The notes under the pieces were generated by a model that searched no databases, was not told where the DNA came from, and worked only from the letters and a program-made list of their open reading frames with translations. The position numbers were made by a program, and so were the translations under genes. This document shows, one piece after another, positions 4,958 through 56,867 of a stretch of DNA of 64,000 bases; the first letter of the stretch is position 1; each line of letters begins with the position of its first letter. The DNA is taken from positions 28,871 through 92,870 of the IMG/VR virus record IMGVR_UViG_3300031857_015401; one strand, written 5' to 3'. Origin of the DNA: a virus.

Positions 4958-5472
4958 TATATTCCGTTAAATTCGTCGTTAGTTACAGGTGCCGCAATTA
5001 TTGTTCTGTAATATTTTTTATAACCACCATAAGTATGTTTATTATCTGAAGTAACTCTACCATCATTAACAACACTGTAGTATCTTACTTTATCTTCCGT
5101 TTCATAATAACCTAAGTAATCACCCAAAGAAATTTCAACAGCTAAATGATCTAAGTGTGATTGATAAACACTAAACGTCATATTACCTGGTTCTATTTGT
5201 GAAAGTTTCGATGTTCCGTAATCTGAATTTGTAGGAGCTTCTATTTTAACAAGACCTTTTAATTCTACAGGAGCCAAAAATTGTATCCCTTCTGTTAATG
5301 CCTCACCATAAACATCGTCGTTATTTGTTCTTTGTCTATCAACACGATATAAAACAACACTGAAATTCATATCACCCATTTGCCATTCCATACCCATTTC
5401 AATTTCTAAATTGAAGTCCTCTTCAGAAAAAAACTTATTTAATCTTGTTATTGGTACTCTTTTTTGTGTCAT
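4957..5472 (-). CDS. probable neck / head-tail connector structural protein
   Basis: This 171-residue beta-rich protein contains MNFSVVLYRVDRQRTNNDD, then DVYGEALTEGIQFLAPVELK and EPGNMTFSVYQ. A DxxGE segment followed by paired strands is also found in T4-like neck proteins of the gp14 type, but the resemblance is weak. It is translationally coupled to the next gene (ATG and stop overlap at 4957). A TATTTATA box ends only three bases before the ATG. The position between sheath and neck genes suggests a virion component. Confidence 0.4.
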   Translation of the reverse strand: MTQKRVPITRLNKFFSEEDFNLEIEMGMEWQMGDMNFSVVLYRVDRQRTNNDDVYGEALTEGIQFLAPVELKGLVKIEAPTNSDYGTSKLSQIEPGNMTFSVYQSHLDHLAVEISLGDYLGYYETEDKVRYYSVVNDGRVTSDNKHTYGGYKKYYRTIIAAPVTNDEFNGI

Positions 5473-5475
5473 ATA

Positions 5476-5483
5476 TATAAATA
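5476..5483 (-). promoter_or_regulatory. candidate late promoter box TATTTATA
   Basis: Exact match on the minus strand, three bases before the ATG at 5472. If the box sits at -10, the transcript would have almost no leader. Confidence 0.45.
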
Positions 5484-5517
5484 CTTTAATTGATTTTTTT
5501 ATATTATTTACTATTTT

Positions 5518-5525
5518 TATTTATA
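5518..5525 (+). promoter_or_regulatory. candidate late promoter box TATTTATA (SNF2 helicase)
   Basis: Exact match on the plus strand, five bases before the ATG at 5531 and divergent from the box at 5476-5483. Confidence 0.45.
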
Positions 5526-5530
5526 ATATA

Positions 5531-7297
5531 ATGGAAGAATTAATTTCAAAAACTCCCGAAACAAGGGCCCTTCAGTTATTAGATGAATATGTTGGGTCAA
5601 ATAACTATATCTTGTCGTTAAAACACAAAAAACAAAATAGTAAGACATTTACACCTACAAGACCACAAGCAGAATACATTATAAATTTTCACGGAAGAGT
5701 GCCAAAGGTTGCAAAAAAATGGGTTAAACTTGATTCATATTTTGGTAAAAAAATGATGGAAGATAAGATGTATACAAAAGAACCATCAGAAATTTATGTT
5801 GAGAAGTTATTAGTTGAGAAAGATAAATCATACCATATATGGGGTAAAATATTTAGTGGGGAAACTTTACATGATTTTTGGATACCTAAATCGGCACTAA
5901 TAAAAGATAACGAGGTTAAAAATGTTGTTATTGAATATTCTAAGTACGAACACAGATCTCCGATGTCTCACCAAAAAGAGGCTATTGAAAAACTTGTTAG
6001 AAATAAAAAGTTTATCTTGGCTGATGATATGGGTCTTGGTAAAACAACATCAACAATTATATCTGCACTTGAAACAGGTGCAAAAAAAATATTAATAATT
6101 TGTCCTGCGTCTTTAAAAATAAATTGGGAAAGAGAGATTGCAAATTATTCAGACAGAACCGTATATATTGCAGAAGGTAAGAAATTTTCGGATGAATCTG
6201 ATTTTGTAATTATTAACTATGACATATTAAAAAACTTCCACGACCCAAAAAAGAAAGACGACTCTATAATTTTAAAATCAAATTTTGAATTGGTTATCAT
6301 GGATGAGGCTCACATGATCTCAAACCCACAAGCACAAAGGACAAAAATAGTAAACGATTTATGTGATAGGTTAGATAGGGTTTGGTTGTTAACAGGAACC
6401 CCAATGACATCAAGACCAATGAATTATTTTAATTTATTAAAATTGGTTGATAGTCCTGTTGCTGCTAATTGGATGGCTTACGCAAAAAGATATTGTAATG
6501 GTTATCAATTTAATGTTGGAAAAAGAAAAGTTTGGAATGTTACGGGAGCATCTAACTTAGATGAATTAAGAGAAAGAACTCAAACACATATTCTAAGAAG
6601 ATTAAAAGAAGAAGTTTTAGACTTACCTGATAAAATTATTACACCCGTTTATTTAAGATTAAAGTCAAAAGATTATGAAGAACTAATGGGTGAGTACTAT
6701 GATTGGTATGATAAAAACCAAGAAGAATCTTCGTCACTTACCATTCAGTTTGGTAAATTAATGAAAGTAAGAAAAGTAATTGCACAAGAAAAAGTTAAAT
6801 CAACAATTGAATTGGCAGAAAACATAATTGAACAAGGAAAAAAAGTTATCATATTTACAAACTTTACAGATACATTACAAGAAATATATAATCACTTTGG
6901 AAAATCTGCAGTTTATTTAGACGGATCTTGTTCAAAACCCCACCGTCAAAAAGCGGTGGACGACTTTCAAGAAAATGAAAAAATTAAAGTATTTGTTGGT
7001 AACTTAAAAGCCGCTGGTGTTGGTATAACATTAACCTCAGCTGAAGCAGTTATTATGAATGACTTATCATTTGTACCTGCTGAACACGCACAGGCGGAAG
7101 ACAGATCACATAGGATAGGTCAAAAAAATTCAACGTCAGTTTATTACCCATTATTTGAAAATACAATTGAAGGAGCAATTTATGACATCTTAACAAGAAA
7201 GAAAAAAATCATATCAACAGTAATGGGTGATGATCTATTATTGGATGAAGGGTCGTCAATAGAAGAAATGTTAAATATGATTTCTTCTAATAGATGA
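5531..7297 (+). CDS. SNF2-family DNA-dependent ATPase (SMARCAL1/HARP-like helicase fold)
   Basis: The 588-residue protein carries the full set of SNF2 helicase motifs. Walker A is ADDMGLGKT at about 164-172, motif Ia is LIICPASLKINWERE, DEAH is at 258-261 and motif III is WLLTGTP. In the second lobe come VIIFTNFTDTL, GVGITLTSAEAVI and motif VI EDRSHRIGQ. Such enzymes move along DNA using ATP and remodel or reanneal forks. In the phage it may serve replication, recombination or repair, much as T4 uses UvsW, though this is a different branch. I chose the ATG at 5531 because the 40 residues upstream in frame are hydrophobic, non-helicase sequence that overlaps the divergent promoter region. Confidence 0.9.
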   Translation: MEELISKTPETRALQLLDEYVGSNNYILSLKHKKQNSKTFTPTRPQAEYIINFHGRVPKVAKKWVKLDSYFGKKMMEDKMYTKEPSEIYVEKLLVEKDKSYHIWGKIFSGETLHDFWIPKSALIKDNEVKNVVIEYSKYEHRSPMSHQKEAIEKLVRNKKFILADDMGLGKTTSTIISALETGAKKILIICPASLKINWEREIANYSDRTVYIAEGKKFSDESDFVIINYDILKNFHDPKKKDDSIILKSNFELVIMDEAHMISNPQAQRTKIVNDLCDRLDRVWLLTGTPMTSRPMNYFNLLKLVDSPVAANWMAYAKRYCNGYQFNVGKRKVWNVTGASNLDELRERTQTHILRRLKEEVLDLPDKIITPVYLRLKSKDYEELMGEYYDWYDKNQEESSSLTIQFGKLMKVRKVIAQEKVKSTIELAENIIEQGKKVIIFTNFTDTLQEIYNHFGKSAVYLDGSCSKPHRQKAVDDFQENEKIKVFVGNLKAAGVGITLTSAEAVIMNDLSFVPAEHAQAEDRSHRIGQKNSTSVYYPLFENTIEGAIYDILTRKKKIISTVMGDDLLLDEGSSIEEMLNMISSNR

Positions 7298-7310: not shown

Positions 7311-8393
7311 ATGGAAATAGAATTAAATAATAGTGGTAATATAGAACAAAAAAAATTAATAAAAAAATTTATAGATTTTTTAGATAAAGAGTATCCATTA
7401 AAAAATGATTTAAAGATTGATTTTTTAGAAAAAAGAACGGGAACTATGACCACAGGTAGTAGGACTAACAATAACCGATTAAAAATATTAGTAAAAGATA
7501 GATTAAATAGAGATATTTTAAAAACTATCGCACACGAATGGATTCACGAATACCAAAGAACAGTTCTAAAAAGAAATAAGGGACCAAAAATTGGTGGTCA
7601 AAACGAAGACGAAGCCAATTCATTGGCCGGATCATTAATAAAAAAATTTGAAAAAAATAATAAATCTGAAGATAACATTATTTATAAACCGTTTCAAAAA
7701 AAAATTAATGAGTTAGAATTAAAAATTAATGAAGATTTAATTTTACAAAAAAGTATAATATCAGAAATTAAAAAGGTTAGTATTGAAAAACTTCCATATG
7801 ATTTTAATTCAGTAGAAACCTTCATTGATAGTGAGACAATGAAAACTCACTATACAAAACATTATAAAGGTTATGTTGATAAATTAAATTTAGAATTAGA
7901 AAAAATAAAAGGTAAAGATTTAGATTTAGAAGAAATTGTAAAAAACATTTCTAAATTTAATACAAAGGTTAAAAATAATGGTGGTGGCGCATTTAATCAC
8001 GCGTTGTTTTGGAAAATGTTGTCACCAAAAAAACAAATTTTAGAAGACCCGATAAAAAGTAAAATTATAAAACATTTTGGTTCTTTTGAAAAATTTAAAG
8101 AGGAATTTGAAGAAGAAGCAAAATCAAGATTTGGTTCAGGTTGGGTTTGGTTAATTTTAACAAAAAGTAACGGATTAAAGATTGTAACTACCGCGAATCA
8201 AGATAATCCACTTATGAACACAGAAAAAACCCAAGGTTATCCTTTATTAGGTCTTGATGTTTGGGAACACGCGTATTATTTAAAATATAAAAACGAAAGA
8301 GATAAATACGTTAAAAATTTTTGGAAAGTTGTTAATTGGGGGTTTGTTAATGATTTATACACAACCCAATTAAGAAAGAAATCAAATCAATAA
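7311..8393 (+). CDS. fusion of a zincin-like metallopeptidase and an Mn-type superoxide dismutase
   Basis: The protein has 360 residues in two parts. Residues 1-115 hold HEWIH at 75-79 and, about 20 residues later, NEDEANSLAG. That is an HExxH zinc site plus an ExxA-like third-ligand helix, as in M78 (ImmA/IrrE-type) zincins. A Lys/Glu-rich linker follows. From about 160 the sequence is a complete Fe/Mn superoxide dismutase with all four metal ligands: H180 (THYTKHYKGYV), H230 (GGGAFNHALFW), D316 and H320 (LGLDVWEHAYYL). GGG at 224-226 and ANQDNPL at 295-301 favour manganese over iron. The SOD part should convert superoxide to peroxide. Joining it to a peptidase in a phage is unusual. There is no signal peptide, so it acts inside the cell or the virion. 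Confidence 0.88.
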   Translation: MEIELNNSGNIEQKKLIKKFIDFLDKEYPLKNDLKIDFLEKRTGTMTTGSRTNNNRLKILVKDRLNRDILKTIAHEWIHEYQRTVLKRNKGPKIGGQNEDEANSLAGSLIKKFEKNNKSEDNIIYKPFQKKINELELKINEDLILQKSIISEIKKVSIEKLPYDFNSVETFIDSETMKTHYTKHYKGYVDKLNLELEKIKGKDLDLEEIVKNISKFNTKVKNNGGGAFNHALFWKMLSPKKQILEDPIKSKIIKHFGSFEKFKEEFEEEAKSRFGSGWVWLILTKSNGLKIVTTANQDNPLMNTEKTQGYPLLGLDVWEHAYYLKYKNERDKYVKNFWKVVNWGFVNDLYTTQLRKKSNQ

Positions 8394-8417: not shown

Positions 8418-9536
8418 ATGTCAACATCAATTATTTCAGAACCAGAAAGAGGTAAGTTGTATAAAAGAATTAGAAATCTTTTAGGTGCACCATTACGTTC
8501 AGTAGAGTTGGAAGACGAACAGATGGATTCATTATTAGAATTATCCGTTCAGGATTATGCTCAACACGTTAATGATTGGTTAATTGAATCTCAATGGTCT
8601 TCACTCTATGGATTAAACTTAGATGAACAATCCGTTACAAGGGCGTTTACTACAAGAAGTTTAGATTGGGAAACTCAATACACTTACTCGTATTCAAAAA
8701 TTGTTGGTTTACAGGCCGGGGGTGATTATGTTTTGAAAAAAGATTATATTGATTTAATACCAAATCAACAAATATATGAAATACCTGCAGGTAGAGAACT
8801 TAATGAACTTTTATGGTTTTCAAGATCTGAATTAGATGCTGCGTATTTTGATCCATTTATGGGTGGGTTTGGTGGTTTTGGGGGTATTGGTCTTGGTGGT
8901 GGTGCTGGATTTTCACAAATGGGTACAACGGGTAATTACTTTATAACACCTGCGTTTGATATCCTTTTAAGAATGCAAGATATTAATATTAAAAGAAGAT
9001 TAATCACAGGTGAATTAACATATAGAGTTACCGCATTACCTGAAGGTAAAAAAGCAATACATTTAATGAATGTTCCTGGTGGTAAATTTGATTTTGGTAA
9101 TATGAAAAATAAAGACTACAGAGTTTGGTATTGGTATTATGAAACAAATGATAGAGAAGATTGTTTGAAAAAAAATCCTGACATTGTAAAACTTCCTTCT
9201 GATGTACCTATTGATGAAATTAGGTGGGACGAATTAAATGGTCCGGCACAAACATGGGTTAGAAGGTGGTTCACCGCATATTGTAAAGAAACTTTAGCAA
9301 AAGTAAGAGGTAAATACAGTGGTAATTTAAAAACACCCGATAGTGAAGTAACTATTGAATGGCAATCTTTAAATACTGAAGCTAAAGATGAAAAAACATT
9401 GTTGTGGGAAGAACTAAAAACAAGATTAGAAAGATTAAGACCTGAAAAACAATGGGAAATTAAAGGTGCAATGGCTGAAAATATGAACAAAGCATTAAAA
9501 TTCAGACCATTTACAAGTCCGTATAATGTTATATAA
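8418..9536 (+). CDS. neck protein (T4 gp13-like)
   Basis: The protein has 372 residues; T4 gp13 has 309. The N-terminus (LYKRIRNLLGAPLRSVELED, then EQMDSLLELSVQDYAQHV) matches the opening of gp13-type neck proteins: a helix ending in LGAP, then an acidic helix that ends in a tyrosine-rich segment. A Gly/Phe-rich loop (GGFGGFGGIGLGGG) interrupts the middle, and the C-terminal half is helical and charged. Neck proteins close the filled head and bind the tail. It is preceded by a late-type box and followed seven bases later by a small unknown gene. Confidence 0.75.
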   Translation: MSTSIISEPERGKLYKRIRNLLGAPLRSVELEDEQMDSLLELSVQDYAQHVNDWLIESQWSSLYGLNLDEQSVTRAFTTRSLDWETQYTYSYSKIVGLQAGGDYVLKKDYIDLIPNQQIYEIPAGRELNELLWFSRSELDAAYFDPFMGGFGGFGGIGLGGGAGFSQMGTTGNYFITPAFDILLRMQDINIKRRLITGELTYRVTALPEGKKAIHLMNVPGGKFDFGNMKNKDYRVWYWYYETNDREDCLKKNPDIVKLPSDVPIDEIRWDELNGPAQTWVRRWFTAYCKETLAKVRGKYSGNLKTPDSEVTIEWQSLNTEAKDEKTLLWEELKTRLERLRPEKQWEIKGAMAENMNKALKFRPFTSPYNVI

Positions 9537-9542
9537 TTTTTT

Positions 9543-9875
9543 ATGGCAATTTTTAAAAGTGTACCATCAAAAAGAATTATAAACGGTAATGTTATTGAAA
9601 CATCTGAGTCAGCAATTGTTACAAATTCTTTTTATAAAACAAACGGAGAATATGCAATTGTTGTTAAAGGTATTGAAAAATGTGAAGTATTTTTAGATAG
9701 TAATACTACTGACCATGTTGTAATAAAATCGTTGACAGAAGTTATTGTTAAATCAGAAGAATTAATAGACGAAGAATTTAATGAAGTTGAACTAACTAAA
9801 GGTTCTTGTGTTGAGTTTAAAAAAATAGGATCCTTTTGGTATATACTATCTTCAGATGGGTTAAAGGGATCTTAG
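9543..9875 (+). CDS. hypothetical beta-rich protein, 110 aa
   Basis: Six bases separate it from the neck gene, so it is probably cotranscribed. The chain alternates short strands (YAIVVKGIEKCEVFLDS, HVVIKSLTEVIVKS, CVEFKKIGSFWYILSS), suggesting a small beta-sandwich or SH3-like barrel. It has no signal peptide or enzyme motif. A minor virion part is likely from context; the function is unknown. Its stop overlaps the convergent polymerase gene by four bases. Confidence 0.6.
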   Translation: MAIFKSVPSKRIINGNVIETSESAIVTNSFYKTNGEYAIVVKGIEKCEVFLDSNTTDHVVIKSLTEVIVKSEELIDEEFNEVELTKGSCVEFKKIGSFWYILSSDGLKGS

Positions 9876-9899
9876 TCAAAAACTAAAGACATTAGATCC
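9865..9899. terminator. inverted repeat at the convergent junction
   Basis: GGGATCT (9865-9871) pairs with AGATCCC (9893-9899), and a smaller stem (TAGT/ACTA) lies in the loop. It overlaps the ends of both convergent genes and could stop transcription from either side. There is no T run, so the call is weak. Confidence 0.3.
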
Positions 9900-12772
9900 C
9901 CATCTTCATCGAATTCATAAATATCATCATCATCTACTTCATTTTTTAACTTACTTTCTAACATAATTCTTCTATTGTTTTCAACTCTTTCACTATCCAC
10001 TAAATTAATTGTGTCATCAATATACATGTAGTAAGGGTCAATTCCAACACTTTTCCAAAACGTAACCTCCATATCAGAAAGGGTTAATACCTCATCTAAC
10101 TTATCTTGGTCTTTTTCTTTCATAGGAAACCCTCTACCTAATGTTGTTTGTGATTTTGTAAATATTGGCATATCTTTAGGGTCTTCAATTAAAATGTCTT
10201 TTCTAATTTCAGGACTATATACAACAAGTAACGGTTCAATTCTTTTATTAAATGCCGCCAAATATCTTGGTACATTATACTCACCTAATAAATCAGGATT
10301 TAATTCTATTTCTTTTTCATCGATTAAATAACAATTTAAAATAACTTCACTTTTTGATAACATTTCAAGTGGCACTGCACCATAACCATCCATGTAGTCT
10401 TGTATTTGTTTTTTAGTCATCTTGGTTGTTTTCTTTTGAACGTCTCCATGTGATTTTTTTTCACCGTTATTAACGTAATAGATTGTATCACCTAAACCAG
10501 GATTTTTACCTGCATTCATTAGAAGTTCCATATGTGCTTGACGTGACATTAAACTACCTGCTTTTGTTGTTTTTGTAATATGAACTTTATAATCTTCTAT
10601 TGATTGTTTAACACGGGCCTTATTCGCAATCTTTGCTAATGGAATTTGTTTATTAAATATTTTATCTACATACTCATAGTAAAAATCTAAAAACTCAGCA
10701 CCCTTACCATCAAGTAACATTCTTAGTCCTTTATCTAAAAATTCTGCCACATATGTTTGAAGTTTTTTAGATTTAATTGTATTACCTGTTAATTTAACTT
10801 TACCCTTATCTGTTAAAAGTGCGTAGTTTTTACGAGCCACGTTAATGGTTGCTGGCCATACACCATCAATATCAAGACCCATTTCATTTCTCATAAATAA
10901 ATCATTGTATTCTGCAACATCGGCTTCTGCTCCCGTATAAACTTTTCCTTCCTCAACTAAACCATTAAGACCCTTACCTACATAAGTGTAATTATCTCTA
11001 TCTTCAGGAGTTTCAAAGTTTACACCATCCGTATCCATTACAAGTGGCGTATACCCTTTACTCATGAAGTACATAATCATCTGTCGTAAATACTGCCTTC
11101 CGGTACACGTAATCTGTTCTCCCATGTCCATATCACCCCAAGGGAAGACGTGGGGTGCTGATAATGATCCAAAGAAGGCATTGATAAAGATTTTGATTGG
11201 TAATTGTTTCCTGTCGTATGAGACAGAAAGTTTCGGATCCGTTTTTTTAAATTCACTTGCTAAATTTTTATATTTTATACGGGTATCTCTAAAGTATTTT
11301 AACATACTTTTCATTGCTCCCGTTACATCACATTTAGGAAATACGTCATGAACCAACTGTATAGATGGATAAAGAGAAGAGTAGTCAAGTTTTAATACCT
11401 TTCTTGAATATCCTACTTGAAGTAATCTTGATAGTCCTCCTGTAAATTTTCTTTTTGGTAGCTTTTTAGGAATTGCTAAATTATGTTTATATGACCACGC
11501 ACACATAATCATCTTCCATAAGGTAGCCGTACCCATAGTTGAAAGTCTTTCATATGTTGTTGGTACAAGTTTAGAAAGTAAAAAGTTTGCTTGGTTAAAC
11601 TGCTCGTCAACAACCATTGTTTCGTAAAGGTCATCATCAAGGTAATCCTCAATTATTTTTGAACCTGTAATTTTTTTATATACATCGTCTCTTCTTGAAC
11701 ATATTTCATCTATTTTAGAATCAAGTCCTACTTTTTTGTAGTTACCATTTTCTTTATTCATCCAATATTCCTCATTGTCAAAATAAATTTTACCAATTTT
11801 ATCCCCTTCTACGTATACACGATTTTCTTTTTCCGCTTCAATAAACTTGGTAATGTACTTCAAAGACCAACTCTTAATGTCAGAGTTAATTGCTTGTGCT
11901 CTACGAACTGCATGGGCAATATCAATAATATTATAACCCCACATTTGTGTTTGAACGTAAGGTTCCATTTCATTTGCTAACTTTAAAATTCCGTCTTTTT
12001 GTTTTAATGAATAATCGGGGTTTAAAGTTTTTGCAATTTTTTTAATGTTTAATTTTAAAATCTCTGCACGTTTTAAAATAAAAGGAAAGTCAAAGAATGC
12101 TGAGTTGTATCCACCAACAAGAGAAGGTTTTAGTTTATCTATTGTTTCAAAAAACTCAATAATCATTTGTCTTTCTTCCTCTTCATTCTGAGCCGACAAT
12201 AATTTTAAAAAACCACGATTGTCTTTCATACCAATCAAGAATATTTTACTTGTCTTGGGATCTAAACCTGTGGTCTCGATATCGAATACAAACCTGTGTA
12301 TTTCATCATATTCGTCAAACCCTTTAAATAGTCTTTTACTTTTTTGAATTAAGTATTGTTCAACAGGTGAGAGAATTGTAATTGCGTCTGAATTATCTCT
12401 ACCCCATGGATCAAGACCGCCACCTTTAAAAAAGTTTACAAGGTTTGAATATGATTTTGTTGTTTTAACCAAGAACGTTAATCCGTTCTTTAATCTTTCG
12501 TCGCCGTGATCTTCTAATTTTTCTATGATAATACCGTTTTCGGACATTGCCTTTTTTTGTAGGTCTTTGTTACCTTTGTAAAAGTTTTTACTTCTAAGGT
12601 CACCAACCCATGCGAACGGAATAAATGTGTCCATTCTCAAAAGTTTTCCTTTGATTGGGTCTTGTATTACTTTAAATATTTTATCTGATTTGTAATCGTA
12701 TTCTAACGCTACGATATATTTTTCTTCGTCTTCGCCATGTAAAAAGCGTTCAATTTCTTCTTGTGGAACCAT
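9872..12772 (-). CDS. family B DNA polymerase with 3'-5' exonuclease (T4 gp43-like)
   Basis: This 966-residue replicative polymerase has both activities. Exonuclease motif I is FDIETTGL (D164, E166) and motif II is YNSAFFDFP (D228). Polymerase motif A is LDYSSLYPSI at about 462-471, motif B is around RKQLPIKIFINAFFG at 521-535, and motif C is MDTDGV with D580 and D582. The length is close to T4 gp43 (898). The gene is read toward lower coordinates and lacks the TATTTATA box, in line with early or middle expression. A small dyad lies just upstream. No intein or split is seen. Confidence 0.95.
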   Translation of the reverse strand: MVPQEEIERFLHGEDEEKYIVALEYDYKSDKIFKVIQDPIKGKLLRMDTFIPFAWVGDLRSKNFYKGNKDLQKKAMSENGIIIEKLEDHGDERLKNGLTFLVKTTKSYSNLVNFFKGGGLDPWGRDNSDAITILSPVEQYLIQKSKRLFKGFDEYDEIHRFVFDIETTGLDPKTSKIFLIGMKDNRGFLKLLSAQNEEEERQMIIEFFETIDKLKPSLVGGYNSAFFDFPFILKRAEILKLNIKKIAKTLNPDYSLKQKDGILKLANEMEPYVQTQMWGYNIIDIAHAVRRAQAINSDIKSWSLKYITKFIEAEKENRVYVEGDKIGKIYFDNEEYWMNKENGNYKKVGLDSKIDEICSRRDDVYKKITGSKIIEDYLDDDLYETMVVDEQFNQANFLLSKLVPTTYERLSTMGTATLWKMIMCAWSYKHNLAIPKKLPKRKFTGGLSRLLQVGYSRKVLKLDYSSLYPSIQLVHDVFPKCDVTGAMKSMLKYFRDTRIKYKNLASEFKKTDPKLSVSYDRKQLPIKIFINAFFGSLSAPHVFPWGDMDMGEQITCTGRQYLRQMIMYFMSKGYTPLVMDTDGVNFETPEDRDNYTYVGKGLNGLVEEGKVYTGAEADVAEYNDLFMRNEMGLDIDGVWPATINVARKNYALLTDKGKVKLTGNTIKSKKLQTYVAEFLDKGLRMLLDGKGAEFLDFYYEYVDKIFNKQIPLAKIANKARVKQSIEDYKVHITKTTKAGSLMSRQAHMELLMNAGKNPGLGDTIYYVNNGEKKSHGDVQKKTTKMTKKQIQDYMDGYGAVPLEMLSKSEVILNCYLIDEKEIELNPDLLGEYNVPRYLAAFNKRIEPLLVVYSPEIRKDILIEDPKDMPIFTKSQTTLGRGFPMKEKDQDKLDEVLTLSDMEVTFWKSVGIDPYYMYIDDTINLVDSERVENNRRIMLESKLKNEVDDDDIYEFDEDGDLMSLVFD

Positions 12773-21169: not shown

Positions 21170-22381
21170 ATGAAAAAAATAAAAGTATTAGTACTCCCAT
21201 CAGACCGCACGGGAGTTGGAAAATTTAGGTCTGTTGATCCTCATGTAATGTTACAAAATAATCATTCAGACGAATTTCACGTAGATATTGATTACGAACC
21301 AAAAATTAATGATATAAATTATTGGAAACAATATGATATTGTTCATTTTCATAGATCCATTGGCCAAGATTATAACCAAGCACCGAATATTATTAAAAAT
21401 TTAAACGCTTTAGGTATTGTAACAATTATGGATTTGGATGATTATTGGTTACCTACTAAAGAACACCCAGTACATCAGTTAGTAGTTCAAAATAAGTTAC
21501 ATGAAAAAATTATGGATAACTTAAAAGTTGCAGGTCATGTAACGACAACAACGTCTATTTTTGCTACAGAAATATCTAAACTTAATAAGAATGTTTATGT
21601 GTTACCAAACGCAATAAATCCAAACGAGCAACAGTTTAAAGCAGAAACATTACCTTCAGATAAGTTAAGATTTGGTTGGTTAGGTGGTTCTTCACATTTA
21701 CACGACTTAAAATTATTAGACGGTACAATTAATAAATTAAAACCGTATAACGATAAGTTTAGTATGTACCTTTGTGGTTTTGATATTAGAGGTAGTGTTA
21801 CAGAAATAAATAAAGAAACTGGAGAACAAAAACAAAGACCAATTAGACCTGAAGAAACTGTTTGGGCTCGTTACGAAGAAATATTCACAGATAACTATAG
21901 AATGGTTACTCCTGAACATAAAGATTTTTTAATGAAATTTAAAGAAGAAGATTACGTTTCTGATGTCTTACCTTTCTATAATAGAATTTGGACAAAACCT
22001 GTAACGAGTTATGCTGCAAATTATAGATGGTTTGACGTTTCATTAGCACCAATTAAAAACCATATCTTTAATAGAGTTAAGTCACAATTAAAAGTAATTG
22101 AAGCAGGGTTTTATAAAAAAGCATTAATCGCATCTAATGTTGGTCCTTACACAATTGATTTAAAACATTCTTTAAAAAATGGTGAATTTACTGATGGAAA
22201 TGCGCTTTTAGTGGATGAGGTAAGAAATGGTGATTGGTCTAAATACATGAAAAAATTAATTGACAACCCTAATTTCGCGTATGATTTAGGCCAACGTCTT
22301 TATGAAACAGTTAAAGACACATACGACTTAAATAAAGTAACAAAAGATAGAGCAGAATTATATAAAACACTTGTAAAATGA
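21170..22381 (+). CDS. GT-B glycosyltransferase (GT4-like)
   Basis: The 403-residue protein has two Rossmann halves. The first reads IKVLVLPSDRTGVGKFRSVD, then YDIVHFHRSIG and VTIMDLDDYW. The second reads LRFGWLGGSSHLHDLKLLDG, then FSMYLCGFD, and has a donor-site region DVSLAPIKNHIFNRVKSQLK followed by EAGFYKKALIASNVGPY. It should transfer a sugar from a nucleotide donor, inverting or retaining unknown. It opens the glycan island just after the terminator and its stop overlaps the next start, so the island is probably one transcript. Confidence 0.8.
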   Translation: MKKIKVLVLPSDRTGVGKFRSVDPHVMLQNNHSDEFHVDIDYEPKINDINYWKQYDIVHFHRSIGQDYNQAPNIIKNLNALGIVTIMDLDDYWLPTKEHPVHQLVVQNKLHEKIMDNLKVAGHVTTTTSIFATEISKLNKNVYVLPNAINPNEQQFKAETLPSDKLRFGWLGGSSHLHDLKLLDGTINKLKPYNDKFSMYLCGFDIRGSVTEINKETGEQKQRPIRPEETVWARYEEIFTDNYRMVTPEHKDFLMKFKEEDYVSDVLPFYNRIWTKPVTSYAANYRWFDVSLAPIKNHIFNRVKSQLKVIEAGFYKKALIASNVGPYTIDLKHSLKNGEFTDGNALLVDEVRNGDWSKYMKKLIDNPNFAYDLGQRLYETVKDTYDLNKVTKDRAELYKTLVK

Positions 22382-23097
22382 TAAACATACCTATAACAAA
22401 AATTTTATTCTTGGATATTGAAACCGTTGGTGGTTGTCCTGATTTAGAATCTTGTGAAAGATTTAGTCCTGAAATTGCAGAACAATTTCATAAATATTTT
22501 GATTGGTTTATTAAAAGGTTTCCTGAAGATAATACAATAGGTAAATCTGAAATAGAATTAAAAAATGAGGTGTTTAAAAAGAGATCCGCTCTTGTTCCTG
22601 AATTTGCAAAAATTGTTTGTGTTTCTATGGCGTTTGTATTGGATAACGGAGAAATTAAAAAACAAACATTTTCAGGTGACGATGAAAAAGAATTATTGTT
22701 ACAAGTAAGAAATCTTTTGGATAGATGTCAAAAGTTAGATTTTTATTTATGTGGACATAATCTTAAAAATTTTGATATTCCTATGATGGCAAAAAGAATG
22801 ATTATTAATGGTATTATGCCATCAAAACTTCTTCCATCGTATGATACAAAACCTTGGGAGGTAAAAGCGATTGACACAAAAGAAATATGGCAATATGGAG
22901 CATACACGGCCATTGGATCATTAGATTTAGTTTGTTCAACAATGGGAATACCAACACCAAAAGATGGTGAAGTCACTGGAGATAAAGTTCATCACGCTTA
23001 TTGGGTGGAACAAAAATTACCACAAATTTCAGAATATTGTGAAAAAGATGTTAATGTATTAATTGAATTTATAAAAAAACTAAAAGAATTAAAGTAA
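22378..23097 (+). CDS. DEDDy 3'-5' exonuclease (DnaQ/PolB exonuclease-like)
   Basis: The 239-residue protein has the three exonuclease motifs: FLDIETVGG (D-x-E) near the N-terminus, LCGHNLKNFDIPMM (motif II, FD), and ISEYCEKDVNVLIEF (motif III, Y-x-x-x-D). It belongs with stand-alone exonucleases related to the proofreading domain of family B polymerases. It may trim DNA ends, recycle host DNA or proofread in trans. It is a replication gene lying between a glycosyltransferase and a dUTPase, with overlapping ends. Confidence 0.85.
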   Translation: MINIPITKILFLDIETVGGCPDLESCERFSPEIAEQFHKYFDWFIKRFPEDNTIGKSEIELKNEVFKKRSALVPEFAKIVCVSMAFVLDNGEIKKQTFSGDDEKELLLQVRNLLDRCQKLDFYLCGHNLKNFDIPMMAKRMIINGIMPSKLLPSYDTKPWEVKAIDTKEIWQYGAYTAIGSLDLVCSTMGIPTPKDGEVTGDKVHHAYWVEQKLPQISEYCEKDVNVLIEFIKKLKELK

Positions 23098-23702
23098 TGA
23101 TTGAAAAAGTTAAAGATTTACAAAACAAATTAAAATTAATCCAAGACCTAAAATCTAGTTTTTTGGAACGTGAAGATTTTTCTGAAGATGAACCAAAAAC
23201 AATTGAAGAATTAGGTATTGATGAAGATATGATATCAAAACATTTTGAAGATCAAATGATAAAAAAAGTTTCTTTAGAATATACAAATTCTTCTGATAAT
23301 AAAGAACCTGAATACGCTTACGGGTCCGACTCTGGTTTTGATTTAAGATCAACCGAAGAATTATGGGTACAAGGAAATGATAGAAAATTAATACCGACAG
23401 GTCTAAGATTTGATATTCCTGATGGGTATGAAATACAAGTAAGAAGTAAAAGTGGTTTAGCATTAAATCAAGGACTAATGGTTTTAAATTCGCCAGGCAC
23501 TGTGGATAGTGGATATCAGGGTGAAATTAAAGTTATTTTATTTAACACAACAAAAGAAAGAATTAAAATAGAAAAGGGTCAAAAAATTGCACAAGCAGTT
23601 CTTTGTCCTGTAATTAATGGAAAATGGATTAACTTAGTTAAAGTTGAAGAGATTGGTGAGAAAGATAGAAACGATAAAGGATTTGGTAGTACTGGTTTAT
23701 GA
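23097..23702 (+). CDS. dut: dUTPase (trimeric type) with an N-terminal extension
   Basis: All five motifs of trimeric dUTP diphosphatase are present: GSDSGFDLRS, RSKSGLA, GTVDSGYQGEIKV, GQKIAQAVL and RNDKGFGSTG. The enzyme cuts dUTP to dUMP, keeping uracil out of DNA and feeding thymidylate synthesis. The total length is 201 residues because of about 65 extra charged helical residues before the core; a typical enzyme has about 150. The extension has no recognised motif. The start (23097) overlaps the upstream stop. Confidence 0.93.
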   Translation: MIEKVKDLQNKLKLIQDLKSSFLEREDFSEDEPKTIEELGIDEDMISKHFEDQMIKKVSLEYTNSSDNKEPEYAYGSDSGFDLRSTEELWVQGNDRKLIPTGLRFDIPDGYEIQVRSKSGLALNQGLMVLNSPGTVDSGYQGEIKVILFNTTKERIKIEKGQKIAQAVLCPVINGKWINLVKVEEIGEKDRNDKGFGSTGL

Positions 23703-25336
23703 TTACAATAGGATTTTCTACAAGAAAAATTGATAATGATTTTGTTGAGTTGTTAAAAAAAACTTCAGGGATACCTAAATGTGAAATTGTACCGGTCGAA
23801 AATAACGGTCAGTTTTCATTAACTGAAGTTTATAATAAAATAATAAACGACTCTTCAAACGATATTGTGGTATTGTGTCATGATGATATATATTTTGATA
23901 CCAAAAATTGGGGAAATAAAATTTTAAACCATTTTAAAAGAAATAAAGATTATGGTGTATTAGGTTTGGCTGGAACAACTAATATGCCAAAATCAGCAAA
24001 ATGGTGGGAAGACTTTTCAAAAATGAAAGGTATTGTAAATCATGAACATGAAGGTAAAAAATGGGAATCAAAATATTCGGCAAGTAAAGGAAACCAATTA
24101 GACGACGTTGTTTTAGTTGATGGTCTTTTTATTGTTATTAACAAACAAAATATTAAAAAAAATTTTAATGAAGGCATAAAAGGATTTCATTTTTATGATG
24201 TTGATTTTTCTTTTAGAAATTTTATAGACGGTGTTAAAATTGGTGTTATGTATGATGTCAGAGTCACCCATAAATCAATTGGTCAAACAAACGAACAGTG
24301 GGAAAAAAATAGAGAGGTGTTCGCTGAAAAATATAAAGACATATTACCCGTTAAGGTTAAAAGAAATTTGAACATAGATTCACCATTAAAAGTTTTACTT
24401 TCTTGTTTATTTTTTAAAACATTTACCGGTTCAGAAATGTATGTTTATGAATTAGCAAGAGGTTTAAAAAAATTAAATTGTGATGTTACTGTTTTATCTG
24501 ACATTAATGGACCGTTATCACAAATTGCAAAATCACAAGGGATTAAAGTTTTAGGTTTTAACGACGCCCCCGGTTATAAAATGGGAGACGGAAAATGGGG
24601 ATTTAATACTCCACAAGGAGTTCAACCATCACAACCAAATATGTTATATAAAATGGGTGAGGTTGATTTTGACATTATCCATACACAACATACACCAATA
24701 ACAAACCAAATGTGTCAAATGTACCCAAACGTTGATAAAATATCAACAATACATTCTGAAGTTATAGAATTAGAAAATCCGGTTTTAAATGAATCAATCA
24801 AAAAATATATTTGTATTAGACCTGAAATACAAGAACATATTACAAATAATTTTAACATCGACATTAATAACACTGAAGTGATTTACAACCCAATAGATAC
24901 TGATAGATTTAACACAAAAAATACAAAAGACGATGGGTATATTTTATTTGTTGGGACGTTAGATTATTTAAGAGAAAACACAATTAAAGATTTAGTTGAA
25001 TATACAAAATCAATAGGTAAAGAATTTTGGTTGGTTGGTGAAAATAAATCAAACTATTTAGAAGATTTATTAAAATCAGAACACGTAAAACATTATGATG
25101 CAACAAATAAAGTTGAGAATTTTGTAAAAAATTGTAGTGAGACTGCGGGCATACTTTTAGGAAGAACAACTATTGAGGGTTGGATGTGTGGAAAACCTGG
25201 TTGGATTTATAATGTAGATGAATCTGGATATATTTTAAATAAAGAAAAGTTTGACATTCCTAAAGATATTAATAAATTTAATTCTTTAGAAGTATCAAAA
25301 AAAATAAAAGAAGAGTATATAAAAATTTTAAACTAA
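23699..25336 (+). CDS. two-domain glycosyltransferase (GT2-like plus GT4-like)
   Basis: The 545 residues look like two enzymes in one chain. Residues 1-215 are a GT-A fold: the donor-site acids lie in IVVLCHDDIYFD, followed by FHFYDVDFSFRNFI and a putative acceptor/metal segment VRVTHKSIGQ. From about 230 a GT-B fold begins: LKVLLSCLFFKTFTGSEMYV, then VTVLSDINGPL, FDIIHTQHTP, VIYNPIDTDRF, YILFVGTLDYLREN and GRTTIEGWMCGKP. Fused transferases often add two successive sugars. The order of action is unknown. Coupled at both ends by ATGA-type overlaps. Confidence 0.8.
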   Translation: MITIGFSTRKIDNDFVELLKKTSGIPKCEIVPVENNGQFSLTEVYNKIINDSSNDIVVLCHDDIYFDTKNWGNKILNHFKRNKDYGVLGLAGTTNMPKSAKWWEDFSKMKGIVNHEHEGKKWESKYSASKGNQLDDVVLVDGLFIVINKQNIKKNFNEGIKGFHFYDVDFSFRNFIDGVKIGVMYDVRVTHKSIGQTNEQWEKNREVFAEKYKDILPVKVKRNLNIDSPLKVLLSCLFFKTFTGSEMYVYELARGLKKLNCDVTVLSDINGPLSQIAKSQGIKVLGFNDAPGYKMGDGKWGFNTPQGVQPSQPNMLYKMGEVDFDIIHTQHTPITNQMCQMYPNVDKISTIHSEVIELENPVLNESIKKYICIRPEIQEHITNNFNIDINNTEVIYNPIDTDRFNTKNTKDDGYILFVGTLDYLRENTIKDLVEYTKSIGKEFWLVGENKSNYLEDLLKSEHVKHYDATNKVENFVKNCSETAGILLGRTTIEGWMCGKPGWIYNVDESGYILNKEKFDIPKDINKFNSLEVSKKIKEEYIKILN

Positions 25337-26340
25337 TGAAAATATTATTTTGTCTTGGGACTAGGCCTGAGTGGTTAAAAATAAAACCCCTTATAAATAT
25401 TTTAGATAAAAAAAATTACGATATTTTTTTTACTGGTCAACATCAAGATTTATTAAAAGACTTAGAATTTGATTACAACGTTAATGTTATAAACAATAAA
25501 AATCGACTTGATGATATTATTATTTCATGTATGTTAAATTTTCCTACAGAAAAATACGATTACGTTTTAGTACAAGGAGACACTGGTTCTGCCTTAGGGT
25601 GTGCGTTGGCAGCATATAATAGAAAAATAAAATTAATACATTTAGAAGCAGGACTTAGAACTTATGATTTAGAAAACCCATATCCCGAAGAGTCTTATAG
25701 ACAAATAATATCAAGAATATCGTCAATTAATTTATGTCCAACAAACGTTTCTTTTAATAATTTAACAAATGAAAAAGTTTCGGGTAAAACATATGTTGTT
25801 GGTAACACTGTTTTAGATAATTTAATAGATTTAAAAGAAAAATCTAATTATGGTGATGACGTTTTAGTTACTTTACATAGAAGAGAAAACCATGACATTA
25901 TGGATAGATGGTTTTTAGAATTAAATAAACTATCAAAAAAGTACCCTAATTTAAATTTTATTTTACCAATACACCCAAACCCAAATGTTCAAAAATACAA
26001 AAACATTTTAGATAAAAAAATTAAAGTTGTTAATCCATTATCACACGGTGATTTAATTAAAATTTTATTAAATTGTAAATTTGTTATTACTGATAGTGGA
26101 GGTATTCAAGAAGAAGCAACATTTTTAAATAAAAAATCTATAGTTTGTAGAAAAACAACAGAAAGACCTGAAGGTATAAGTACCGGTCATTTATTTTTAT
26201 GTAATGAAACAAAAAATTTAGATGAGTTGGTTTACATAATTAATAAAAATTATTATATTAATAATGAATGTCCATATGGTAATGGAACTTCATCAAAGCA
26301 AATAATAGAAATTTTAAAAAATGATTACAGTAATCCTTAA
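25336..26340 (+). CDS. wecB: UDP-N-acetylglucosamine 2-epimerase (WecB-like)
   Basis: The 334-residue protein should convert UDP-GlcNAc to UDP-ManNAc. Visible family residues are GTRPEWLK near the N-terminus, the catalytic acids D82 (VQGDTGS), E104 (HLEAGLRTYD) and E118 (PEES), and H181 (TLHRREN). Near the C-terminus is ITDSGGIQEEA. Length matches the nonhydrolysing family, slightly short of the usual 370. This supplies an amino sugar donor for the transferases around it, and suggests that the product glycan contains ManNAc or a derivative. Confidence 0.88.
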   Translation: MKILFCLGTRPEWLKIKPLINILDKKNYDIFFTGQHQDLLKDLEFDYNVNVINNKNRLDDIIISCMLNFPTEKYDYVLVQGDTGSALGCALAAYNRKIKLIHLEAGLRTYDLENPYPEESYRQIISRISSINLCPTNVSFNNLTNEKVSGKTYVVGNTVLDNLIDLKEKSNYGDDVLVTLHRRENHDIMDRWFLELNKLSKKYPNLNFILPIHPNPNVQKYKNILDKKIKVVNPLSHGDLIKILLNCKFVITDSGGIQEEATFLNKKSIVCRKTTERPEGISTGHLFLCNETKNLDELVYIINKNYYINNECPYGNGTSSKQIIEILKNDYSNP

Positions 26341-27834: not shown

Positions 27835-28232
27835 AATTAGTTAAAAACAAAAAAAAATATTACGAATTTATTCGTAATATGAGGATACATCCTGATAACG
27901 AGTCGGGATTTTTAGAAAAAGTCAACATAACTTCAGAACAACAAGAAAATTATATGAAAAAATATAATGATTGTTATTATGTTGCCATTTTAAATGAAAG
28001 TCCTGTTGGGTATGTTGGTGTTGTTGACAATGATATAAGAATTTGTACAGACCCTTCATATAAAAAAACAGGTGCCGGAACTTTTATGTTAAATGAAATA
28101 ATGAAATTATATCCAAATGCAACTGCAAAAATATTAAAAGATAATGTTGCAAGTTTGTCTCTTTTTAAAAAATGTAATTTTACTATTGTTAATGACGATG
28201 AAAATCTTTATTATTTAAAATATGGAATATAG
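27825..28232 (+). CDS. GNAT-family N-acetyltransferase
   Basis: This is a compact GNAT domain of 135 residues. The strand YYVAILNESPVGYVGVVDND is followed by the acetyl-CoA loop region DPSYKKTGAGTFMLNEIMKL and by the closing strand-helix-strand ATAKILKDNVASLSLFKKCN. It would acetylate a small substrate, probably an amino sugar made by the neighbouring DegT-like protein. I take the ATG at 27825 as the start; a TTG six bases earlier in frame is less likely. Confidence 0.8.
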   Translation: MELKLVKNKKKYYEFIRNMRIHPDNESGFLEKVNITSEQQENYMKKYNDCYYVAILNESPVGYVGVVDNDIRICTDPSYKKTGAGTFMLNEIMKLYPNATAKILKDNVASLSLFKKCNFTIVNDDENLYYLKYGI

Positions 28233-29522: not shown

Positions 29523-29527
29523 AATTT

Positions 29528-30055: not shown

Positions 30056-30056
30056 T

Positions 30057-31779: not shown

Positions 31780-31782
31780 AAA

Positions 31783-32433: not shown

Positions 32434-32441
32434 TTTTTATT

Positions 32442-36147: not shown

Positions 36148-36148
36148 T

Positions 36149-46918: not shown

Positions 46919-47380
46919 ATGAACATACAAAGTATTATTAGAAAAGTTTTAAGAGAAGAAGAAAATAAAAGGTCTTCAAGATACATGTTTTTTTCTAACC
47001 TACAACAAATGAGAAGACAATGTGATTTACTTCTTGATTTAGATGAAGAAATGGTTGAGGATATATTAGATAATGGTCATGATTGGGCTCAAGACCATAT
47101 CGCGGAAGCAAAAAATAATATGGATCAAGTTTTTGATTTTATTATGAATGAATCCAAAAAAGATGGTATGGAATTATCTATGTCTATAGATGATAAAGAT
47201 ATGGTTGAAGAAGGTCGTAAAAAAACTGGGACTAAATTATGTGCTAGAGGTAAATCAGCGGCAAAGGCAAAATTTGACGTGTATCCATCGGCTTATGCTA
47301 ACGGATATGCCGTACAAGTTTGTAAAGGAAAAATTAAAGGATTAGACGGTAAAAAACATTGTTCAGGTTCTTTTTGTTAA
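46919..47380 (+). CDS. Cys-containing phage protein with KLCARGK...YPSAYAN domain, 153 aa
   Basis: Residues 1-15 (MNIQSIIRKVLREEE) form an amphipathic helix ending in L-R-E, like a T4 capsid-targeting sequence. The middle is acidic and helical. The last 50 residues hold GTKLCARGKSAAKAKFDVYP, then SAYANGYAVQVCKGKIKG and GKKHCSGSFC, a conserved small domain with four Cys that I associate from memory with DUF5872-type phage and giant-virus proteins. It is the last gene of the plus operon; a terminator follows inside the convergent gene. Confidence 0.65.
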   Translation: MNIQSIIRKVLREEENKRSSRYMFFSNLQQMRRQCDLLLDLDEEMVEDILDNGHDWAQDHIAEAKNNMDQVFDFIMNESKKDGMELSMSIDDKDMVEEGRKKTGTKLCARGKSAAKAKFDVYPSAYANGYAVQVCKGKIKGLDGKKHCSGSFC

Positions 47381-48087
47381 AGGGAACTCAAAATATTTCT
47401 AACAATAATATCTAAAGACTCTTTTTGAGTCTTTTTTGGTTTATATGATGTCATTACAGGTTTTTGTCCTTTACCCGATTGTGTATCTTTTTTTTCTGCA
47501 TTTCTTTTTTGTTGACAAGCAGATCTTTTTTCGCTATCGGACATTTTACCGGCAACACCGGCTGCTCGACATTTAGGGTACCCACCTTTATCAGTATCTT
47601 GTCTTCCACAAGGAGGATGTTTCCCATCAACTTTTCTACATATATTTACCCAAGGACCTTTTGGTTGTTTTGACCCTTTTGGTTTTTTCTTTGTCCCAAA
47701 CCAAACCGCTAAATCTTCATTTAATGGTATTTTATCTAACTCAACCCATTCACCAACTATTGGAACTATTTTTTTACCTTTACCTGGTGTAGGATTTATT
47801 GGTCCACCTTCTTCATCACTAAGTTGTTTATGTGTTTTGTTATATTTACTAATTCTTCTTGATTTTGCTTCTAATTTTTTTCTATCTTTTTTGTGTGAAT
47901 CTAAACTACCGTCATAACTATCGTATTCTAATTCAGAATTAAAATATTTAGAAACTTTATTTGTAAAAGGACCCATGACACTATCATCCCAATCTACTTC
48001 ACCCATAGTTAATGGTCCGTTATAGTTACCTGAGTACCTTGAGCTAGTGGTTTCATTTAAAACCTTTTTGATTATTTTTTCAATCAT
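47377..48087 (-). CDS. Cys-containing phage protein, 236 aa, partner-like to the convergent gene
   Basis: It begins MIEKIIKKVLNETTSSRY, again an amphipathic helix ending in L-N-E. After a Lys-rich, disordered middle comes KIPLNEDLAVWFGTKKKPKG, then GPWVNICRKVDGKHPPCGRQ and GGYPKCRAAGVAGKMSDSEK, with Cys pairs that may hold zinc. The C-terminus (ESLDIIVRNILSSL) is another short helix. It overlaps the convergent gene by four bases. A packaged internal head protein is a reasonable guess; the function is unknown. Confidence 0.6.
   Translation of the reverse strand: MIEKIIKKVLNETTSSRYSGNYNGPLTMGEVDWDDSVMGPFTNKVSKYFNSELEYDSYDGSLDSHKKDRKKLEAKSRRISKYNKTHKQLSDEEGGPINPTPGKGKKIVPIVGEWVELDKIPLNEDLAVWFGTKKKPKGSKQPKGPWVNICRKVDGKHPPCGRQDTDKGGYPKCRAAGVAGKMSDSEKRSACQQKRNAEKKDTQSGKGQKPVMTSYKPKKTQKESLDIIVRNILSSL
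47414..47437 (+). terminator. rho-independent terminator embedded in a convergent coding region
   Basis: AAAGACTC (47414-47421), a five-T loop and GAGTCTTT (47427-47434) followed by TTT make a standard plus-strand terminator 34 bases after the stop at 47380. It lies inside the 3' coding part of the minus-strand gene. Confidence 0.75.
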
Positions 48088-50578: not shown

Positions 50579-50600
50579 TATAGTATTTTTAAAAAAATAA

Positions 50601-50681: not shown

Positions 50682-50689
50682 GTTTATAT

Positions 50690-50788: not shown

Positions 50789-50792
50789 TATA

Positions 50793-52444: not shown

Positions 52445-54232
52445 TTATCTCAATTCTCTCAAGTCGAATGTTCTAACACCATCAACTACGATTCTACCAT
52501 AGAAACGGTTGTTAACCATTTTCTTAGCGTATCTCGTCATTATACCTTTAATAGGTGTAAAGTTGAATGGGTTATACATTGTAGGTGTTAATTGTAGAGG
52601 TACATATGGAGCGTAAACGTATCCTGTATCTAACAATGAAGAACCTTTGTGTCCTAATAAGATTGTGTTAGGTGGGAAGTAAGGATCTCTATACACTTGG
52701 TATCTTCCTGATAATGTACCAACTCTTTCAATACCCATGTTGTATTGATCTTGCTCAGGTGAAGCGTTAGATACGTGGAAGTACTCAAGGTCATCAAAGA
52801 TAGCTGAAATCTCAGAAGAAACAACAATCCAATTGGCACCACCTCTAAGTGTAGACTTGTGGATTTGTGCAGAAACTTGGTTAATTGCGGTAATCAAAGT
52901 TTGATTCCAATCTTTTTGTGTGTATTGAGTTAATGGATTTGCTGCTGTTCCTCTTTTCCATCCATTGTAATCCCATCTTAAAGTCCATGCAGCTCCTTTT
53001 CTAAGGTCTCTCAAGATTTCTCTATCAATTTCAGCAGCTACTTGTTCAGACAATAAAGCCGTTAATTCAGCTTCAGCATCGATGTTATGGAATGCAGAAA
53101 CGTCTTGTGCCAATTCAGGAGACCATTGTGCTCTTAGTTTTCTTTCTGTAACAGATACAGTAACTGACTCAAGGTCAAAAGAAACTTCACCAATTTTATC
53201 TTCAAATTCTAATTCTTGATATACTCTATAAGTTGCGGTGAATTCTGTGTTAACACCTGCATCACCAGCAATAGTAGTAGTTAAACCTGAATAACCATCT
53301 AATGAAGTTGCTCCTATTGAACAAGGTACTTGTAAATCTACTTCTAAGTAAATTTTACCGTCAGCAGAACAAATATTATCATAAGAACCACCGTTTCCAT
53401 CAGTACCAAAAGTTGTTGAAGTTTGTGTACCATATTGAACAATTCCTTTACCGTATTTTTGAGTTACTACTCTAAATAATAGGTTAGAACCAGAAACTCC
53501 TGAAAAAGCAGCGCCCGCACCACTATTAGCAGTCACTGTTAAATCAGAAAGGAATGATTCGTTATCCATTTCTTGACCATCAGGACCAATTAATTTACCT
53601 GCTCCTGCGTTAGAGAATCCTGACATAACAAGTAATACTTTTCTATATTCACCAGCAGTATACCCTGAAGGAATTAATTCACCATTTGACCACACAACTG
53701 TAGTAACAGAAGCGGTAAGTGCTGAATATCTACCTTTTGAATAATCAAAAAGACCTGCGGGATCTAAACCAGGCTCATTTCCTTCATAAAATCTGTCATA
53801 AAGGTTTTTTCCTGAATTATAAGCCGCTTGAGAAGCTGCTTGAGTTGGTCCTCCATCTGCACCAATAGGTGAAAAATGTTCATTACCAGTATTATAACCT
53901 TGAATTTTAGGTACAAAGTAGAACAATTTACCGATTGGTAAGTTCATTGCTTGTACTGATACTAAATCGTTAGCTAATAATTTAGAGAATACTCTTCTAA
54001 CGATAGGGAATACAACTGTTTCAAAAGAACCTGAACTATCAGTTGATGCCGCTTCATTAATTAGGTGAGACGCTTGGTTTTCATATAATTGTGCCATGTT
54101 CTCTTTAACGTGTCCTCTTAGACCGTCTAGGAATCCTAATCTATCCCATTTGTTGATTGTATCTTCTTTGATAACTTTAAGGTGTTTTAACCCAATGTTA
54201 CCAACAAGACCTGATTCTAATAATGCTCCCAT
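52445..54232 (-). CDS. major capsid protein (T4 gp23-like)
   Basis: The 595 residues have the gp23 landmarks: a helical N-terminus, FETVVFPIVRRVFSKLLAND and LVSVQAMNLPIGKLFYFVPK (the P-M/N-L-P-x-G-x-x-F core), and a C-terminus with IKGIMTRYAKKMVNNRFYGR. HLINE at 56-60 followed by AA fits a T4-type prohead protease site, so about 60 residues should be removed on maturation, as T4 removes 65. A TATTTATA box lies 39 bases upstream and a strong terminator follows, so it is its own late unit. Confidence 0.93.
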   Translation of the reverse strand: MGALLESGLVGNIGLKHLKVIKEDTINKWDRLGFLDGLRGHVKENMAQLYENQASHLINEAASTDSSGSFETVVFPIVRRVFSKLLANDLVSVQAMNLPIGKLFYFVPKIQGYNTGNEHFSPIGADGGPTQAASQAAYNSGKNLYDRFYEGNEPGLDPAGLFDYSKGRYSALTASVTTVVWSNGELIPSGYTAGEYRKVLLVMSGFSNAGAGKLIGPDGQEMDNESFLSDLTVTANSGAGAAFSGVSGSNLLFRVVTQKYGKGIVQYGTQTSTTFGTDGNGGSYDNICSADGKIYLEVDLQVPCSIGATSLDGYSGLTTTIAGDAGVNTEFTATYRVYQELEFEDKIGEVSFDLESVTVSVTERKLRAQWSPELAQDVSAFHNIDAEAELTALLSEQVAAEIDREILRDLRKGAAWTLRWDYNGWKRGTAANPLTQYTQKDWNQTLITAINQVSAQIHKSTLRGGANWIVVSSEISAIFDDLEYFHVSNASPEQDQYNMGIERVGTLSGRYQVYRDPYFPPNTILLGHKGSSLLDTGYVYAPYVPLQLTPTMYNPFNFTPIKGIMTRYAKKMVNNRFYGRIVVDGVRTFDLRELR

Positions 54233-56162: not shown

Positions 56163-56867
56163 TTATTTATCCAAATAATCGGATAATCTTTTCATTAAGT
56201 CAATAGATTTACCTAAAGGATTTGATTCTACACTTTGGTGTTCAGTTAATTTTTCTTCATACTTTGGTCTATCTTCTTTATTTAAATAAAGGTATGCTCC
56301 CGGCGTAGATGGAGATGAAACAAGGTCAAAACAAATTAATTCAAAATCTTCTTGTACTTCATTTTGTTCTCCTTTTTTAACTAATGAACCAACTCCTCTT
56401 GAAGACACTCCCATAGTAACACCTTGTCTCATCATGTTTGCTGCAACATCTCCTTTAGAAGAAATAATACCTCTTTCATGAAAACCTGGTGAAGTTAATA
56501 ATTTAATTTTACCCATTAACACGTTATCTTCCCACCACACATCAGTTATTAAATGAGCTACTCTATCTAAATCAATAAGTGAAGATTCAGGGTGATTAAG
56601 TTCAGAAATTGACATTCCCCTATTAATCATTTCTTTATATTTTTCGGCTTCTCTTTTTAATATTTTTTCAGGATATATTCTACCATTTCTATTTGGTACC
56701 CCATATTTTTGTAATGTTGCATAAAACACAAAAGGTTTAGAATGATCTAACTGTCCGTAAGATTCTTTTATTACTTGACTGTTTCTATATTCATTTGGGT
56801 TAATAATCCCCGCGTCCCACTCAACTAAAATTCCTTTACCTGTATCATTTGGTCCTAATATTTTCAT
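56163..56867 (-). CDS. prohead protease (T4 gp21-like, family S80)
   Basis: The 234-residue serine protease has H92 in SELNHPESS and S155/S156 in TMGVSSRGVGSL, with D181 in ICFDLVSSPSTPGAYL. This is the herpes-like fold used by T4-type phages to cut the scaffold, capsid and internal proteins after [L/I]-x-E during head maturation. The length matches T4 gp21 (212). A variant box lies 14 bases upstream. It is followed by the DUF4494-like gene and a terminator. Confidence 0.92.
   Translation of the reverse strand: MKILGPNDTGKGILVEWDAGIINPNEYRNSQVIKESYGQLDHSKPFVFYATLQKYGVPNRNGRIYPEKILKREAEKYKEMINRGMSISELNHPESSLIDLDRVAHLITDVWWEDNVLMGKIKLLTSPGFHERGIISSKGDVAANMMRQGVTMGVSSRGVGSLVKKGEQNEVQEDFELICFDLVSSPSTPGAYLYLNKEDRPKYEEKLTEHQSVESNPLGKSIDLMKRLSDYLDK

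Follow-up and report, generated by a model that had tools for sequence, protein, structure and literature searches.

One gene of the window (the whole stretch of 64,000 nt analysed here, taken from a viral record of 92,870 bases) encodes an HExxH/ExxA zincin, a flexible linker and a full-length Mn-type superoxide dismutase (SOD) in a single chain, with no internal stop in the reading frame. The gene may encode a late polyprotein which is packaged in the capsid and cut by the prohead protease into zincin and SOD; we give this full mechanism a probability of about one half. As far as searches of databases and literature show, a phage SOD fused to a metallopeptidase is undescribed, yet the fusion is common in freshwater viral contigs. 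The features discussed are collected in Table 1.

Table 1. Positions in the window of the fusion gene, its parts and other features discussed; a slash marks a cut or proposed cut.
Feature	Position	Strand	Evidence
Helicase (SNF2/UvsW-like), 5' neighbour of fusion gene	5411..7297	+	phrog_62, E 7.5e-113; SNF2-rel_dom, E 1e-30
Late-type box ATATTTATA, 5' of fusion start codon	7297..7305	+	8-mer enrichment, conservation, distance profile
Zincin-SOD fusion gene, 360 aa	7311..8393	+	uninterrupted ORF, Pfam, relatives, alignment
Zincin domain, residues 1-124	7311..7682	+	AlphaFold mean pLDDT 92.8 (residues 1-132); Foldseek
HEWIH zinc-binding motif, residues 75-79	7533..7547	+	H75, E76, H79 invariant
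E99-D-E-A102, likely third zinc ligand helix	7605..7616	+	E99, A102 invariant; model helix 97-116
Inter-domain linker, residues 125-157; residues 138-155 with pLDDT < 50	7683..7781	+	AlphaFold, alignment
Proposed prohead-protease site I149-I150-S151-E152/I153	7755..7766	+	conservation in 109 sequences
Mn-type SOD, residues 158-351; ligands H180, H230, D316, H320	7782..8363	+	Pfam, alignment, PDB matches
Head-tail adaptor (neck), 3' neighbour of fusion gene	8418..9536	+	phrog_211, E 9e-11
Small protein with leader MNIQSIIRKVLRE; different leaders of orthologues end in LxE	46919..47380	+	orthologue comparison
Protein with leader MIEKIIKKVLNE, followed by TTSS	47377..48087	-	sequence
gp23 site LINE/A, equivalent to T4 maturation cut	54053..54064	-	gp23 Pfam E 1.1e-72; conserved in 8 relatives
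S77 prohead core protease (T4 gp21 family), proposed cutting enzyme	56163..56867	-	Pfam PF03420, E 1.1e-22

The SOD belongs to the Fe/Mn family (Sod_Fe_N/Sod_Fe_C). Pfam places its N-terminal domain at residues 158-238 (E 9.5e-22; bit score 77.7, cut-off 27) and its C-terminal domain at residues 247-347 (E 2e-40; bit score 137.4, cut-off 20.9). The best PDB sequence matches align residues 154-351 of the fusion with whole SOD chains, which begin at query residue 154-160 and end at about 344-359. Because the solved chains are matched from end to end, the SOD of the fusion is considered complete. The closest solved SODs are Mn-type or cambialistic enzymes, and the identity to solved MnSODs is 40-48%. 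The whole domain, all ligands and the GG and NQD signatures are common to the fusion and to the Mn type, while the fusion differs from known Fe/Mn SODs in being encoded by a phage and in sitting behind a zincin and a linker. The metal ligands and the active-site Tyr/His (H180, H184, Y188, H230, D316, H320) are all invariant, and judged by these predicted ligands the Mn-type active site is intact. A zincin joined to a complete Mn-type SOD is what the initial annotation had read here; the Pfam SOD domains and the invariant motifs agree with it, and the residues it had named (H75, H79, E99, A102, H180, H230, D316 and H320) are all where it had put them.

The zincin is more difficult to classify. 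AlphaFold models residues 1-132 alone with a mean pLDDT of 92.8, with the HExxH helix at residues 66-84 and the Glu helix at 97-116. The HExxH motif and the ExxA(N) helix of the peptidase M78 type are present, and H75, E76, H79, E99 and A102 are invariant. In Pfam, no family is above the cut-off for the zincins of the fusions: the best match to SprT-like has E 0.022, below the cut-off, and only 3 of 30 members reach any match to M78 (PF06114, ImmA/IrrE), the best having E 0.035, again under the cut-off. Sequence searches in PHROGs and PDB gave no assignment. Foldseek against PDB places Wss1 at the top (E 2.8e-3, TM 0.57), ahead of IrrE (E 0.27). The filing of this domain under ImmA/IrrE in the initial annotation is therefore not supported past the general zincin fold. 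The zincins of Wss1/SprT, IrrE and the fusion all have a minimal alpha/beta zincin fold, an HExxH motif and a Glu helix (ExxAN); the fusion zincin is unlike them in falling below every Pfam family cut-off and in having distant fold matches only.

Closer relatives of the zincin are found in phages. Foldseek against viral models matches a stand-alone relative of 127 aa (E 3.7e-13) and the same domain within larger phage proteins. Stand-alone phage zincins, such as QPX48222 of Synechococcus phage S-SRM01, are homologous to the fusion zincin (35% identity); unlike the fusion, QPX48222 is without SOD and is located among replication genes. A pattern scan detected 118 zincin ORFs, 63 scored with SOD and 55 without, a split that is rough since some of the 55 end at contig edges. 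Two giant phage ORFs, L346 and L355 (1350 and 1670 aa), also contain this zincin, alongside several further segments. Their N-termini are nucleotidyltransferase-like by eye, and they are possible larger polyproteins.

The initial annotation had proposed a search for the same domain pair in viral metagenomes. A scan of IMG/VR gave at least 599 candidate stretches, of which at least 585 were confirmed as encoding a relative of the fusion. Most of the 80 relatives listed match from residue ~1-16 to residue 353-360. The residues H75, E76, H79, E99, A102, H180, H184, Y188, H230, Q297, D316 and H320 are invariant in 52 distinct sequences. The same open frame on hundreds of contigs, together with this invariance, rules out an assembly or frameshift artefact, the possibility which had been raised against the fusion at the outset. 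On one contig, L306, zincin and SOD are in two overlapping frames at an A5 run (9249-11304, reverse complement coordinates), and in the SOD frame the linker, which ends FFITE, is retained as a leader. This overlap could reflect either a true split or an error in sequencing, and it is therefore given little weight.

The novelty claimed earlier with respect to annotated phages holds in the phage collection searched: the zincin-SOD pair is in no record, none covers 80% of the fusion protein, and the sole zincin match is the stand-alone protein of S-SRM01. The better SOD matches in this collection (38-50% identity) were set aside, since the record names and the gene content of MW462191 suggest that they are mostly bacterial sequences labelled as phage. 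In GTDB genomes, a scan detected SODs and, in a MAG of Flavobacteriales, a single fragment of a stand-alone zincin, but the fusion was absent from what it returned. No such fusion is mentioned in papers on SOD in phages, as judged from their titles and the opening lines of their abstracts.

The gene lies between a helicase gene and a neck gene and is preceded by a late-type box, as the initial annotation had described. TATTTATA is present 5' of 16 of the 87 ORFs of the window, against 0.64 expected (8-mer enrichment), and a ATATTTAT-like box is kept 5' of the fusion in each of the 25 relatives listed. Read on the opposite strand, TATTTATA is the T4 late box TATAAATA; it is strongly enriched on the coding strand 5' of genes.

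The junction between the two domains contains the pattern on which the proposed cut is based. When 109 sequences are aligned on the LPY of the SOD, position -9 is Glu in 109/109 (E152), P3 (-11) is I, L or V in 109/109, P4 (-12) is L, F or I in 109/109, and P2 (-10) is free. E152 is the one invariant residue of the linker, and its context is [LFI]-[ILV]-x-E. This is the pattern of cut sites of T4 gp21-type prohead proteases, and we infer a site here; T4 gp21 favours L or I at P3. In 38 representative linkers, [LI]xE is observed 104 times against 63 expected by shuffling, and 0 of 2000 shuffles reach 104; these linkers, like the sequences counted at the junction, are related and hence not independent. 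[LI]xE is thus found at the domain boundary of the fusion, in the zincin/SOD linker. P1' at the junction is M or I, versus A in the phage's own gp23. Residue 5 of S. aureus SodA aligns with residue 158 of the fusion, and the native SOD start is near residue 154; cleavage after E152 would hence yield an SOD whose first residue is at most two away from the native one. The S77 protease was detected in 6 of 15 related contigs.

Similar junctions are found behind the SOD. Among 110 distinct fusions, 46 have a C-terminal extension, and [LI]xE is within 22 residues past the SOD in 46/46, against 5/64 of the fusions without extension and a background of 25%; the extensions constitute only three BLAST clusters plus L306, so the 46 sequences are not independent. 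Two of these modules are also found alone, behind leaders ending [LI]xE (or LRED). The module of L341 is 55% identical over 104 aa to the stand-alone protein G017_3560, whose leader ends IIITE, while the L341 junction at the same place reads TINE. The module of L079 matches G017_55073 and G017_54642, with the leaders MKELIRHIIKEE and MKELIRHILRED. In L269, the zincin is followed by SIIKKIIREE and then another domain. In these relatives, a second [LI]xE junction is followed by an added or swapped third module.

Leaders of this kind are also present on small proteins. The leader of the window gene at 46919 differs between its orthologues in four phages, and ends LxE in all of them. In the 304-kb relative G017 (L373-L388), a handful of N-terminal leaders ending [LI]xE, for example MKKVIRLTESDLTRIVKRVINE and MKELIRHIIKEE, recur on dozens of small proteins that otherwise differ from one another; these leaders are possible capsid-targeting tags. 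[LI]xE is found at residues 8-24 in 114 of the 334 proteins of G017, versus 81 expected, and the late box in 29/62 leader-bearing ORFs versus 61/304. The leader enrichment reaches significance in G017 only; in G000, G001 and G015 it is in the same direction and not significant (p 0.12-0.17). PSSMs from the N-terminal leaders gave zero matches at the fusion junctions, and their matches fell inside the SOD; leaders and junctions therefore share a cut-like motif, not sequence. A CTS-like N-terminal leader is absent from the zincin-SOD protein, whose zincin fold starts at residue 3.

In T4, as outlined in PMC9026906, PMC9958956 and PMC5694885, a ten-residue targeting sequence (CTS) directs unrelated proteins into the head; it is cleaved off by gp21 after Glu. 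Cleavage after A-x-E or similar motifs is outlined for giant phages (PMC5694885, PMC10052503). The S77 protease, gp23 and the late-type box are common to the window and to the T4 system of internal proteins (IPI-III, Alt; gp21), and the [LI]xE sites at leaders and junctions resemble it. The fusion is unlike the T4 internal proteins in that the site is between two folded domains, not behind a 10-residue leader, that the cargo is an enzyme pair, and that its packaging is a proposal. A search for virion proteomics of fusion-bearing phages found none. The chlorovirus PBCV-1 provides a precedent for a viral SOD, A245R, which is late and carried inside the virion (PMC7019647), as proposed for the fusion. 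It is unlike the fusion SOD in being of the Cu/Zn type, with an unrelated fold and from a eukaryotic virus. To our knowledge, A245R is not a fusion.

Under the proposed mechanism, the late gene would supply a precursor of two enzymes, a zincin-type metallopeptidase and an Mn-type SOD with a flexible linker between them, and this precursor would enter the core of the prohead. The gp21-type (S77) protease would cut after E152 during head maturation, so that zincin and SOD, the latter with an N-terminus of native length, would be separate proteins within the capsid. Both enzymes could then be ejected with the DNA into the host, where the SOD would limit superoxide early in infection and the zincin would act on a host or DNA-bound protein. 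The linker and the junction pattern point to such a polyprotein instead of the oxidative-stress sensor or the protease protecting the SOD that had been suggested earlier. A wider version is tentative: zincin, SOD and exchangeable third modules might be modular cargo polyproteins cut by the prohead protease in the head, alongside dozens of small proteins whose cleavable leaders are interchangeable, so that the head would deliver a large and swappable set of enzymes including SOD.

The alternative that survives best, itself unlikely, is that the protein remains an uncut bifunctional enzyme, produced late and active in the host cytoplasm, where superoxide is cleared by the SOD and the tethered zincin treats damaged or DNA-bound proteins as Wss1/SprT do. 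The predicted integrity of both active sites, the retention of the fusion in hundreds of relatives and the position of Wss1 as the nearest solved fold are consistent with it, but the linker is disordered and variable save for the protease-like motif, the zincin also exists alone, and the junction motifs recur with unrelated modules.

Less probable still is that the E152 region is conserved only for packing against the SOD, without processing, and that the motif is a coincidence in a helix rich in K, E, I and L. Positions -7 and -1 to +2 around KLPY are conserved as well, as is the stretch just behind E152 (K, then KLPY), so E152 could be retained for structural reasons along with these residues from -9 to +2; composition alone also yields many [LI]xE. 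Against this, P3 and P4 are hydrophobic with P2 free, the [LI]xE count exceeds the shuffles, and the model has pLDDT < 50 for residues 138-155. Self-processing, in which the zincin adjoining the invariant linker residue, as a putative protease, would itself cut the linker and free the SOD without the prohead protease, is very improbable, since [LI]xE fits Glu-specific cutting by gp21-type proteases and the same motif is at the leaders of proteins without zincin.

If the polyprotein is packaged and cut in the head, this would be a new route of enzyme delivery by phages. A prohead-protease site at the junction would also widen the T4 internal-protein system beyond short leaders to cleavable enzyme polyproteins and provide a sequence rule to predict capsid cargo in uncultured phages, and the countering of oxidative conditions at infection by phages would become testable.

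By gp23, the closest cultured phage is Flavobacterium phage immuto (39%), and Rhodothermus phage RM378 is also among the top matches. Based on these and on the subtilase and the GEVED/CUB protein of the window, a Bacteroidota host is likely. The phages with the fusion are a freshwater T4-like family, probably with hosts in Bacteroidota. The annotation of immuto from 110000 to 159000 (genome 160410 bases) contains no SOD product. The subtilase and the GEVED/CUB protein (48560-52223, minus strand) are beside gp23 and have secretion-like N-termini, which is unusual phage cargo. Another region of the window, 21170-36904, is a long run of genes which by eye appear to encode glycosyltransferases, sugar-nucleotide enzymes and methyltransferases, perhaps for glycosylation of the surface or of DNA.
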